DNA of 64,000 nt from Chitinophagaceae bacterium (GTDB lineage: Bacteria > Bacteroidota > Bacteroidia > Chitinophagales > Chitinophagaceae): the NCBI GenBank assembly GCA_019638595.1, contig JAHBTJ010000011.1, positions 62,001-126,000 on the forward strand. The letters are read 5' to 3'. The position numbers and the translations under genes were made by a program. The notes beneath the pieces were generated by a model that had not been told where the DNA came from, ran no database searches, and saw only the letters and a program-made list of their open reading frames with translations. This document shows positions 26,140-53,117 of this stretch, piece by piece (the first letter of the stretch is position 1; every line of letters starts with the position of its first letter).

Positions 26140-27390
26140 ATGAATCAACGAAACTATGCAGCGGTATTTTTAGTGCTTCTTACATTTTTTGTGATTTCTT
26201 TTATGACAAATATTATCGGGCCGCTTACGCCTGATATTATTAAAAGCTTCAACCTGAGCCTGCTTTTGGTAGCCCTATTGCCATTTGCGTTTTTTATTGC
26301 TTACGGACTGGTTTCTTTGCCTACCGGTATTCTTATTGAAAAATACAATCCCAAAATAATAATGGCAGCGGCATTTGTACTGGCGTTGTGCGGATCCTTG
26401 TTGCTCGCGCTGTTCCCTAATTATTTGTCTGCCATCATATCCTTATTCCTTATCGGGGCAGGCATGGCAATGCTACAGGTAATTATCAACCCGTTGCTGC
26501 GTATAGCCGGCGGCGAAGAAAACTATGCCTTTACTTCCGTTCTCGGGCAATTGGTATTTGGGCTGGCTTCTTTTGTAAGCCCGTTGGTATATTCTTACCT
26601 TGTGCTGAACGTTAATAATAGCGGGTCGGCGGCGTCAAAAATATTTTCTTTAACACCGGAAGCGCTTCCCTGGATATCTATCTATTTCCTGTTTTCGGTT
26701 ATCAGCGTATTGATGATAATCGTAACGCTGATCTTCCGCTTTCCTAAAATGGAGCTGACAAACGATGAAAAAGCAGGTAACCTGAAAGCATACCTGCAGT
26801 TGTTGAAACAGCCGCTTGTGATCGCTTTTTTCTTTGGCATTTTCTGTTATGTGGGAACGGAACAGGTTATCGCCAATTGGATGTCGCAATACCTAAGCGT
26901 ATATTTTGGGTATGATCCTCAAACAACAGGAGCAAGGGCTGTTGCCTATTTTTGGGGATTGATGACGGCAGGCGGCGTGCTGGGCCTGCTGATGGTAAAA
27001 ATAATGGACAGCCGCAAAGTGCTGATCCTGTTTACATTCCTGGCAATACTTTCTCTTACCGCGGCTTTATTGTTTTCCGGTGAAGTAGCCCTTATAGCAT
27101 TGCCGCTTACCGGCTTTTTTGCTTCGGTCATGTATCCTGTAATTTTTTCCCTGGCGTTAAATTCCGTAACACAAAATCATGGTGTGTTCGCGGGAATATT
27201 GCTAACGGGTATTACCGGCGGCGCAATAGTGCCGTTAATAACAGGATGGATAGGCGATACCTGGGGACTAAAAGCCGGCTATTGTTTTCTCTACCTTACT
27301 ATGGGGTATATACTAAGTGTTGGAGTATGGGCAAAGCCAATTATCACCAATAAAACCATCCAATTGTTTAAAAAGAGATCCGATAAATGA
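26140..27390 (+). CDS. FucP-type sugar MFS transporter
   Basis: Twelve-helix major facilitator protein of 416 residues, similar to L-fucose and glucose/galactose permeases, which import monosaccharides with protons. Landmarks: MTNIIGPLTPDIIKSFNLS in helix 1, LPTGILIEKYNPKIIMAAAF between helices 2 and 3, and GAGMAMLQVIINPLLRIAGGEENY (helix 4-5). The stop codon TGA (27388-27390) is part of the 9-base target duplication made by the mobile element that follows directly, so the gene end was the insertion point but the reading frame is intact. Substrate unknown. Confidence 0.85.
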   Translation: MNQRNYAAVFLVLLTFFVISFMTNIIGPLTPDIIKSFNLSLLLVALLPFAFFIAYGLVSLPTGILIEKYNPKIIMAAAFVLALCGSLLLALFPNYLSAIISLFLIGAGMAMLQVIINPLLRIAGGEENYAFTSVLGQLVFGLASFVSPLVYSYLVLNVNNSGSAASKIFSLTPEALPWISIYFLFSVISVLMIIVTLIFRFPKMELTNDEKAGNLKAYLQLLKQPLVIAFFFGIFCYVGTEQVIANWMSQYLSVYFGYDPQTTGARAVAYFWGLMTAGGVLGLLMVKIMDSRKVLILFTFLAILSLTAALLFSGEVALIALPLTGFFASVMYPVIFSLALNSVTQNHGVFAGILLTGITGGAIVPLITGWIGDTWGLKAGYCFLYLTMGYILSVGVWAKPIITNKTIQLFKKRSDK

Positions 27391-28135
27391 CCAGGGCAAA
27401 CGCATCTAAACTGATATATGCTCATTCATCCCTCGGGACATAGGCGTCAACTTAAGGAACAGGAGCCGTAAAATGCCGCGAAAAGGTAATATCATTTAGT
27501 TAAGGAATATACATGTTAAGCAGGGTTTAGAGCCCGGATTGCTGATTTAAAGACCCTAAATGGATGCTCCGGGTGCGGTCTTTTTTATACAATCAGGGGT
27601 AACGCCTATGGCGCATCATTGAAAAATACCCTCTTTGTTTACAAACGGGTTGTGCCGATGCTTTGAAAAGCATTTCATTCGCCTGGGACACACACCTGGG
27701 AAACATGCCGCATAGCGGCTACCTGCTGTAGAAAATGCGGACGTTTTATTTTGCTTGTAAAAGCATACCATAATATAAAGTGATCTGTGAAATACAGAAA
27801 AATATTCCATCCTGATGGGACTATCTCCTTGCTAACCCGAAAATGGATATTCAGACAGCCTGTCGTGGGCTGGTTCAGGCTGATATAAACGTTCGAAACC
27901 TGCTGAAAATGCCGCTCCTACGGAGCTTTGTCAATGCGTTACTGTATAATTGCCATTTCGCGTCTGACTATAAAATTGTGGATATGGCAGCCTTCAAAAT
28001 AGCGTTTCGAACACTTATGTTTGGCAAATTGCCCGATGGAACAAATGAACCATCTGCTATAGAGAAACGGGAAACAATAATCAGATAACCAATAGTTACT
28101 GTACTTTTTTAGATGCGTTTGCCCTGGTTAAATGA
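27382..28135. mobile_element. Non-autonomous TIR element, copy 1, with 9-base target duplication
   Basis: Element body 27391-28126 (736 bases), beginning CAGGGCAAACGCATCTA after one C and ending with its exact reverse complement (TAGATGCGTTTGCCCTG, 28110-28126); counting the flanks the two ends match over 21 bases. Flanking 9-mers GATAAATGA (27382-27390) and GTTAAATGA (28127-28135) agree at eight positions, the sign of a target duplication. The first about 320 bases are almost identical to copy 2 at 52477-53085. No transposase is encoded; the longest open frame (27843-28088) is in a part absent from copy 2. It carries an internal terminator at 27549-27586. A cut-and-paste DDE transposase elsewhere in the genome would be needed to move it. 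Confidence 0.9.
27549..27586 (+). terminator. Terminator inside mobile element copy 1
   Basis: AAAGACC (27549-27555) pairs with GGTCTTT (27577-27583), with ACCC/GGGT inside, and six T follow. The same structure is at 52635-52672 in copy 2. It reads in the + direction, so it would end a transcript that starts in the left part of the element. Confidence 0.65.
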
Positions 28136-28190
28136 CCGGGCTGTTGACCTTTTGAACCTGGTTAGGTTATGCGCCTTGTATTGGGTGATC

Positions 28191-28613
28191 TTATTTTCCT
28201 GCGCGTTTCGAGCGCATGCCGTATACTATTTTCAGCTTTTTATCTTTCATGAAGTTTTTATATTCCACTGTTTCCATGCCATAGATGGCTATTTTCCCTT
28301 TATGGTTGCTGTGCACGCCCCAGCCATACCGTTTGGTTAACGGGGAGGAACGGAGGCAGGCCTGTCCTTTTGAAAAGAATGTATTCCTGCCGGCTTCAAG
28401 TTCCGATTGTGCCAGGTTGTTTTTAGCAGCAAAACAGGCAAATATTACATCGTCTGACGTATACCTGTACGGGTTTTTGCTGACCATTTCATACTGCATG
28501 GCCGCTATACTTTTTGCATCCTCTTTTACAGGCGGGATCTCTCCCTGTAAAGCAGGGCAATCTTCCGCTACCGCAATAAAAGTGTCGGTATAATTGGTTG
28601 TGTGCGTTTTCAT
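28191..28613 (-). CDS. DUF6157 family protein
   Basis: 140 residues; small soluble protein of unknown function with the DUF6157 pattern: YTDTFIAVAEDCPALQGEIPP at the start, MVSKNPYRYTSDDVIF in the middle (about 43-58), FFSKGQACLRSSPLTKRYGWGVHSN (about 79-104) and a basic end, MRSKRAGK. The family is widespread in bacteria and some fungi. It lies between the mobile element and miaB, antisense to miaB, and seems to be intact. No function should be assigned. Confidence 0.87.
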   Translation of the reverse strand: MKTHTTNYTDTFIAVAEDCPALQGEIPPVKEDAKSIAAMQYEMVSKNPYRYTSDDVIFACFAAKNNLAQSELEAGRNTFFSKGQACLRSSPLTKRYGWGVHSNHKGKIAIYGMETVEYKNFMKDKKLKIVYGMRSKRAGK

Positions 28614-45235: not shown

Positions 45236-45852
45236 CGGTGGGTAATTGTTTAATGTGGAATAGGTACCGCGTAGAATTCTATTTATAAAATTGGTTTTAT
45301 AAGTTATGTACGTGCTATTGAACGGGGCAGTTGGTAAAGGCCGGATCCTTTTTATACGAGCAGGCGCGCTGTAACTGAAATCAGGAGTAATAGCAGGGAA
45401 AAGCATGCCGTTCTGCCACAGGCATTGTTAAAATATTCCAGTATTTACCAAACTTTCGCGTTTATGACGCTATAAAATTATTGATATGGCAACCCTCAAA
45501 AATAACGTTTCGAACATTTTATTTTGCCCCGTCAGGGGCTACCCGTAAAGTGATCAGCGAAATATAAAAAAATATTCCATCCCAATGTCAGGATTACCCC
45601 TACTTCCAGCGCGAAAACCTGAACTTTATTGCGGTATGTGCTTATTTCTGGTTTTGCCGCAATAAAAATAGTTCTTACGAAGGTAAATGCGCCGTGCCGG
45701 GCTCATAAAAATTGACTAATTTTAAGGCATGCCATGTGGTTGCCTGCAGGCAAAAGATGAATACTGCAGGAGCATATCCCAACAATCATGCTGCCTTAAA
45801 CATCCGCATCTGATTGTTACCCTTTTGAATATTTTTAAATGCGCGTTAAAAA
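45236..45852. other. Spacer holding a partial relative of the mobile element
   Basis: 617 bases. From 45454 to 45625 the sequence resembles part of the two mobile elements (see that feature). The remainder, apart from a small hairpin (GCGGTATG..TTGCCGC near 45631-45661), shows no gene, repeat or clear promoter. Confidence 0.65.
45454..45625. repeat. Partial relative of the TIR elements (third locus)
   Basis: Matches, with many differences, the middle of copy 1 (TTCGCGT..TATAAAATT..GATATGGCA..CCTCAAAA..GTTTCGAACA) followed by a stretch shared with copy 2 (ATTTTGCCCCGTCAGG, then GTAAAGTGATC and AATATTCCATCC). It lacks both terminal inverted repeats, so it is a decayed or different relative. 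Short palindromes such as CCCCGTCAGGGG lie inside. Confidence 0.65.
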
Positions 45853-52467: not shown

Positions 52468-53094
52468 ATTGTCAGGCCAGGGCAAACGCATCTAAACTGA
52501 TATATGCTCATTCATCCCTCGGGACATAGGCGTCAACGTAAGGAACAGGAGCCGTAAAATGCCGCGAAAAGGTAATATCATTTAGTTAAGGAATATACAT
52601 GTTAAGCAGGGTTTAGAGCCCGGATTGCTGATTTAAAGACCCTAAATGGATGCTCCGGGTGCGGTCTTTTTTATACAACCAGGGGTAACGCCTATGGCGC
52701 ATCATTGAAAAATACCCTCTTTGTCTACAAACGGGTTGTGCCGATGGCACAGAAAAGTATTTCATTCGCCTGGGACACACCTGAAACATGCCGCATAGCG
52801 GCTACCTGCTTGTAGAAGAAATGCCGGACGTTTTATTTTGCCCCGTCAGGGCTACCCTTAATGTAAAGTGATCTGTGAAATACAGAAAAATATTCCATCC
52901 TGATGGAAGGACTATCGCCCCTTTGCTAACCCGAAAATGGATATTCAAACCTGCCTGTTGTGGGCACGGTTCAGGCCCACGGCTTAAGTTACCCGATGGG
53001 GCAAATGAACCATCTGCTACAGAGAAACGGGAAACAATATCAGATGACCAATAGTTACTGTACTTCTATAGATGCGTTTGCCCTGATTGTCAGG
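52468..53094. mobile_element. Non-autonomous TIR element, copy 2, with perfect 9-base target duplication
   Basis: Element body 52477-53085 (609 bases) begins with C and CAGGGCAAACGCATCTA (52478-52494) and ends with its exact reverse complement (53069-53085). The flanking 9-mers ATTGTCAGG at 52468-52476 and 53086-53094 are identical. The first about 320 bases differ from copy 1 by only a few bases; then the two diverge, copy 1 carrying about 127 extra bases. The last about 80 bases are shared again. No coding frame is conserved. It lies between the Dabb gene and the rluD promoter; the -7 box of rluD is 23 bases past the right duplication. Confidence 0.92.
52635..52672 (+). terminator. Terminator inside mobile element copy 2
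   Basis: AAAGACC (52635-52641) with GGTCTTT (52663-52669) and a T-run to 52672, identical to that in copy 1. Conservation of this structure between copies is close to complete. Confidence 0.65.
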
Positions 53095-53117
53095 AACTAT
53101 CTTAGTAATGGCTGCAT

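Follow-up and report, generated by a model that had tools for sequence, protein, structure and literature searches.

Organization of the locus

The window, i.e. the whole 64-kb stretch of DNA that was analysed, contains two copies of a short non-coding element, here called A, whose ends are a 17-base sequence, CAGGGCAAACGCATCTA, in inverted orientation. Copy 1 (27392..28126, 735 bp) has its left terminal inverted repeat at 27392..27408 on the plus strand and its right one at 28110..28126 on the minus strand, and two further families of non-coding repeats, B and C, are nested inside it. Copy 2 (52478..53085, 608 bp), with ends at 52478-52494 (+) and 53069-53085 (-), possesses B and lacks C. These four exact sites are every match of the 17-mer in the window at up to three mismatches; none of 100 shuffles contained four sites (mean 0.24, largest 2).

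Copy 1 lies directly 3' of the TGA stop codon (27388-27390) of a gene encoding an MFS_1 transporter. This stop is contained in the left target-site copy, GATAAATGAC (27382..27391), and the reading frame of the transporter is therefore intact. An earlier note on this DNA had placed the insertion at the end of a sugar transporter gene; the transporter assignment holds at the family level (MFS_1). The element is absent from the transporter's four nearest orthologues, which have 85-92% identity and are followed by more distant ones at about 66%. These four proteins are two codons shorter at their end, and the sequence downstream of their genes, compared by eye, is unlike that of the copy 1 locus. 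The neighbouring gene on the other side of copy 1 (28191-28613, minus strand) encodes a DUF6157 protein. Copy 2 is located between two ORFs, and we saw no disruption of a gene by either copy.

Concerning the coding content, the interior of copy 1 has no frame longer than 90 codons from stop to stop; its longest ORF starting with ATG, GTG or TTG has 81 codons and matches no Pfam family, and no trace of a transposase gene was found in the interior of A. The earlier description of a non-coding element with terminal repeats and no transposase is thus confirmed, although its length, given as 736 bases, is 735 bp, as the C at 27391 falls outside the element.

Target site duplication

The flanks of copy 1, GATAAATGAC and GTTAAATGAC (28127..28136), match at nine of ten positions, as do those of copy 2, ATTGTCAGGC (52468..52477) and ATTGTCAGGA (53086..53095). 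A third copy in the same genome, on contig C10, has AACCATTACC on both sides (10/10). Before insertion, a single GNTAAATGAC would be expected at the site of copy 1 and a single ATTGTCAGGN at that of copy 2.

The length of the duplication was evaluated on pairs of ends. Out of 42 pairs, two were dropped where a shorter pair had the right end in common (the outer pairs of loci L179, 335 bp, and L199, 1784 bp, the latter enclosing a 357-residue frame without an ISAs1 match), which left 40, and two of these had no flanks. Over the remaining 38 pairs, a 10-bp direct repeat is exact in 15 and reaches at least 9/10 in 20, while shuffled flanks reach this level in 0.54 pairs on average and in three at most. 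At repeat lengths of 6-9, 11 and 12 only 0 or 1 of the 38 pairs is near-exact. The duplication was previously given as 9 bp; with one near-exact pair at length 9 against 20 at length 10, it has to be corrected to 10 bp. The 15 exact cases come from the same genome (C10) and from other genomes of the family, with record titles that name Chitinophagaceae, Niabella, Mucilaginibacter, Flavobacteriales, Gloeocapsa, Thiomicrospira, Legionella, a deltaproteobacterium and Akkermansia. The 18 pairs below 9/10, among which is a copy on contig C49 at 6/10, are old insertions, rearranged ends or chance pairs, and it should be noted that the duplications of both copies in the window are themselves imperfect. 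ISAs1-family elements make target duplications of 8-10 bp, a range into which the 10 bp of A falls.

Assignment to the ISAs1 family

A full-length insertion sequence with the same ends was sought and found. At loci L087, L103 and L066, a single large ORF lies between paired ends that are 1173-1404 bp apart, and at L126 a pair 1610 bp apart encloses an ISAs1 transposase; on these four loci up to two mismatches in the ends were permitted. Two of the elements are flanked by perfect 10-bp duplications (L103, 1189 bp; L066, 1404 bp). All four transposases tested match the model NF033564 (transpos_ISAs1) with 392-441 bits, against a cut-off of 70, and all four carry the Pfam domains PF13808 and PF01609.

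The association is also oriented as expected of an element bounded by these ends. Among the matches listed, from 118 stretches of the genome collection, an ISAs1 transposase lies within 1.7 kb of an exact end on its inner side at 19 of 125 sites and on its outer side at none; without the three stretches from which the queries were taken, the counts among these matches are 14 of 120 and 0 of 120. Of the same 125 listed sites, 40 are no more than 300 bases from the edge of their stretch; the other 85 include 13 with a transposase and 29 with a partner end and no transposase. As regards the 40 end pairs, four contain a full-length ISAs1 ORF and 36 have no frame of 200 residues; two of these 36 hold a decayed ISAs1 transposase (L119, 1179 bp; L160, 559 bp) and the other 34 show no transposase trace, which for the copies from the genome under study was taken from a genome-wide search with the L066 transposase as query.

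The earlier note proposed a DDE-transposase family, which is borne out by the ISAs1 transposases found elsewhere between the same ends, and suggested in particular an IS10-type member of the IS4 family with 9-bp duplications. The latter is understandable, as the transposase is a DDE enzyme in the broad sense and a near repeat of nine bases is readily visible at the flanks of A, but all four transposases tested between these ends are of the ISAs1 type and none is of the IS4/IS10 type, and the 9-bp duplication of the IS10 group is not what the flanks display. On these two grounds IS4/IS10 membership was rejected, and we regard it as exceedingly improbable.

Since full-length elements with identical ends encode ISAs1 transposases and make the same 10-bp duplication, A is assigned to the MITEs of this family. 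Its interior is free of transposase and it is present in several copies in one genome, at six places, two of them incomplete or at a contig edge. We are confident that copies 1 and 2 are ISAs1-family MITEs with a stack of non-coding repeats inside and that they are probably stranded remains.

Distribution of the element and of its ends

The genome is a draft of 7.06 Mb in 52 contigs. A DNA search with copy 1 as the query gave 63 matches in all, and those outside A copies correspond to pieces of B and C. Besides the two copies of the window (contig C3), A was found on C10 (92% identity), on C14 (88%, right end missing), on C41 (at the contig edge) and, in a divergent form, on C49 (78-79% in the longer pieces); a 44-bp remnant lies on C15. 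No copy of A without B was seen in this genome.

When the 17-base ends were searched for elsewhere, the exact end was present in three of 58 relatives and, within the family, in 16 of 394 genomes, the genome under study being included in both counts; the genome collection has it in at least 118 stretches. The collection was scanned for one exact 18-mer, of which about seven or eight would occur by chance in its 257 billion bases, on both strands and with even base composition; a lone end without a partner is therefore weak evidence in an unexpected phylum. The plasmid and phage collections gave no match to copy 1 at the blastn level, and three exact 17-mers of the A end were found in viral contigs. 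A genome of the same genus, G004, has a 937-bp element with the same ends that otherwise has only about 20 bases detectably in common with copy 1.

The end string CAGGGCAAACGC did not occur in the literature searched, a scope outside which most subscription papers fall, and the accessible parts of PMC3542288, PMC4596501, PMC3281130 and PMC5756416 contain no description of these ends.

Comparison among copies

In the first 268 positions of the element, copies 1 and 2 agree at 265 and differ by three substitutions. The earlier observation that the left 320 bases or so are nearly identical is consistent with this value; conservation is not confined to the left, however, as copy 1 agrees with the C10 copy at 266 of 268 positions on the left and differs from it by only one substitution and one gap over 641-736. 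It is the middle of copy 1 that is aberrant, with 29 substitutions and nine gap runs in 269-510 relative to C10. By eye, about nine clustered multi-base replacements can be recognized at 27659-28030 with respect to C10, C14 and copy 2. Several of them form new perfect short palindromes (10 against 6 in C10; shuffled mean 2.9). The replacements could be due to templated quasi-palindrome correction or to an assembly artefact.

Which copies are most alike depends on the part of the element considered: the closest match of copy 2 is copy 1 on the left and C14 in 269-510. This suggests that the copies have recombined with each other.

The identity of 265 positions out of 268 could also be read in a different way, namely that the left 270-320 bases are a functional unit under selection (a regulatory RNA, a terminator, a promoter or a short peptide) and that the mobile ends are incidental. 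A short frame, ATGCCGCGAAAAGGTAATATCATTTAG, does follow a purine-rich stretch, and by eye an equally short frame is present in the C49 copy. However, RNA from 27430-27570 folds no better than shuffled sequences (z +1.43, with 188 of 200 shuffles as good), and the Rfam search, at E up to 1, returned one sub-threshold match, located at the right end; by neither measure does the left segment resemble a structured non-coding RNA. Promoter-like sites in 27000-28600 number two against 3.7 in shuffles, and terminator-like sites one against 1.6, the one being outside the element. In the divergent copy on C49, conservation of the left part (78% identity) does not exceed that of the next stretch (79%), and the right end is kept equally well between copy 1 and C10. 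Selection on the left segment, as suggested in the earlier note, is thus unsupported and we consider this explanation improbable. Most of the left segment belongs to the left part of the nested B, and the left segments are alike because the copies are recent.

Nested families B and C

The left end of B, CATAGGCGTCAACTTAA, lies at 27439..27455 (+) in copy 1 and, with one mismatch, at 52525..52541 (+) in copy 2. Allowing one mismatch, the genome has 40 such ends, of which five lie within copies of A, while a reversed-pattern control gave none. Thirteen complete B copies of 331-334 bp were counted among the loci fetched. In copy 1, B has a long form (27439..28033) with a degraded right end, whose exact boundary we infer; other B copies align collinearly with element positions 189-270 and 312-361 at about 82-89%, and one longer match is at 75%. 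On C10, on C14 and in copy 2, B ends on the right in a shortened form, CTTAAGTT(G). Since the right end of B is degraded in the composite, B is less secure as an inserted unit than C. No autonomous partner of B was seen. The exact B end is present in two of 12 genomes of the genus and in one of 244 genomes of the family, which is the genome under study itself (a draw without G004, which has the B end), and viral contigs contained none.

C occupies 27885..28019 in copy 1, with ends ATAAACGTTCGAAAC and GTTTCGAACACTTATG; it is 135 bp long here and 144 bp in the other copies measured. Outside A, matches to C occur at 21 further places in the genome. It folds better than shuffled sequences (z -4.35), and the DNA on its two sides is directly repeated over 8-9 bp. 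When 9 bp are compared, at least seven positions agree in 13 of 26 rows, against 1.3 in shuffles; the 26 rows come from fewer loci and many are counted in both orientations. In the C14 copy the 9-bp sequence GCCCACGGC flanks C on both sides, while copy 2, without C, has a single uninterrupted GCCCACGGC at 52975..52983, i.e. an empty C site. Copy 1 can therefore be written as A(B(C)) and copy 2 as A(B). In the region next to this site copy 2, which has no C, most resembles the copy on C14, which has one; a precise loss of C would explain this, as would recombination of one copy with another.

Both B and C are found without A at many places of the genome. Many B copies lie within short palindromic repeats (L221, L223, L225, L237 and L239); given insertion inside such repeats, each B flank there is half of a REP-like hairpin, for example CGCAAAGCG. 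For C, several copies are located in GAAGTC..GACTTC palindromes. Palindromes seem to be targeted by families B and C.

The short palindromes in the interior of A, the palindromic sites of many B and C copies and the shift of copy relationships along the element would all be compatible with a locus that is no transposition unit at all, but a REP-like palindrome cluster made by chance or recombination and flanked by repeats. Such a cluster does not account for perfect inverted 17-bp ends at two places, for the target duplications, for the same ends on coding insertion sequences or for the G004 element, in which these ends enclose an unrelated interior and the duplication matches at 8/10; we find this alternative scarcely credible.

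Mobilization and spread

A transposase that could move A was looked for in the draft genome. No match was found, either with the 368-aa L066 transposase or with NF033564, which in a control search gave matches in three of 14 genomes, two of them above the cut-off. Within the genus, five of 12 genomes match the transposase query, part of the matches being short pieces. G003 has a 57%-identical copy with one stop, G010 has three 46%-identical copies, and G005 has decayed pieces with an end, at one mismatch, about 200 bp from the broken gene. Around the ISAs1 genes of G003 and G010, in the DNA fetched, no end was present at up to three mismatches. A partner transposase in the same genome is usual for MITEs of this kind, although not strictly defining, and the search described above found none for A; therefore the proposed mobilizer is not on hand and the copies seem to be stranded. 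Most simply, this would mean that an ISAs1 element came through and was then lost. A multi-copy ISAs1 insertion sequence could also be hidden in the gaps of the 52-contig draft.

Concerning the mechanism, an ISAs1-family DDE transposase would recognize the 17-base inverted ends and move the DNA between two of them, duplicating 10 bp of the target. The ends, the duplication and a transposase between the same ends elsewhere are directly observed; from these we infer that the enzyme acts in trans, and how transposition proceeds. The outer A carries B, and B in turn carries C, of the 144-bp family, in copy 1, C10 and C14. The whole stack has spread as a single unit by means of the ends of A: at three places the A(B) stack, with or without C, is enclosed by the target duplications that belong to A, which argues that it moved as a unit.

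As a tentative extension, which we put forward as a possibility more than as an expectation, the near-invariant ISAs1 ends might act as an 'address' shared across phyla. Short transposase-free cargoes bounded by them, which outnumber coding insertion sequences (34 of the 40 pairs examined), might pass between genomes that have lost the enzyme and acquire other MITE families on the way, and stacks such as A(B(C)) might spread as compound units.

Relationship to known elements

The closest known system is the ISAs1 insertion sequence itself (NF033564; PF13808 and PF01609), which has identical 17-base terminal repeats and 10-bp duplications and, with L066, is found in the same bacterial family. 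In contrast to it, A has no transposase and its interior consists of other repeats. A is also similar to the type I MITEs of bacteria, whose ends are in common with an insertion sequence, as far as they are described in the accessible parts of PMC3542288: both are non-coding, with inverted ends, target duplications, several copies and presumed mobilization in trans. Unlike these, A has a partner that was undetected in the same genome and an interior in which two other non-coding families are stacked.

In the accessible text of PMC3542288, the MITEs of Anabaena sp. 90 are short, non-coding and bounded by inverted repeats, and they share their genome with an ISAs1-family insertion sequence, ISAsp2; they were termed type II as their ends matched no insertion sequence of that genome. 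They are likened to A by description. The BrickBuilt, MITE293 and MITE700 elements of Porphyromonas gingivalis are MITEs of the same phylum and, according to the accessible parts of PMC4596501, their ends were likened to those of ISPg1/ISPg9 and ISPg3, BrickBuilt having IS-like ends with no transposase remnant inside; these too are set beside A by description only. Elements inside elements are likewise present in the transposon conglomerates of Aeromonas, which, in the part of PMC5756416 that is accessible, are coding insertion sequences, whereas the stack in A is made of three non-coding families and itself spreads.

The triple nesting is the main curiosity of an otherwise understandable ISAs1-family MITE, and it provides a clean example of one non-coding mobile element that carries two others and spreads along with them. 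A repeat that was unannotated now has a family name, a likely class of mobilizer and a corrected target duplication. With its ends, ISAs1 MITEs can be searched for exactly in Bacteroidota, Cyanobacteria and Gammaproteobacteria, and the same ends offer a substrate on which ISAs1 transposases can be tested.

Further arrangements of B and C

C or C-like sequence is also present at two other loci of the same genome. At L041 (C17:93500-98500) a complete B lies between two C copies of the same orientation, which are separated by about 970 bp; this is possibly the result of a duplication. In the window, at 45420-45545, a partial C-like sequence is followed by the palindrome CCCCGTCAGGGG, forming a decayed repeat cluster.
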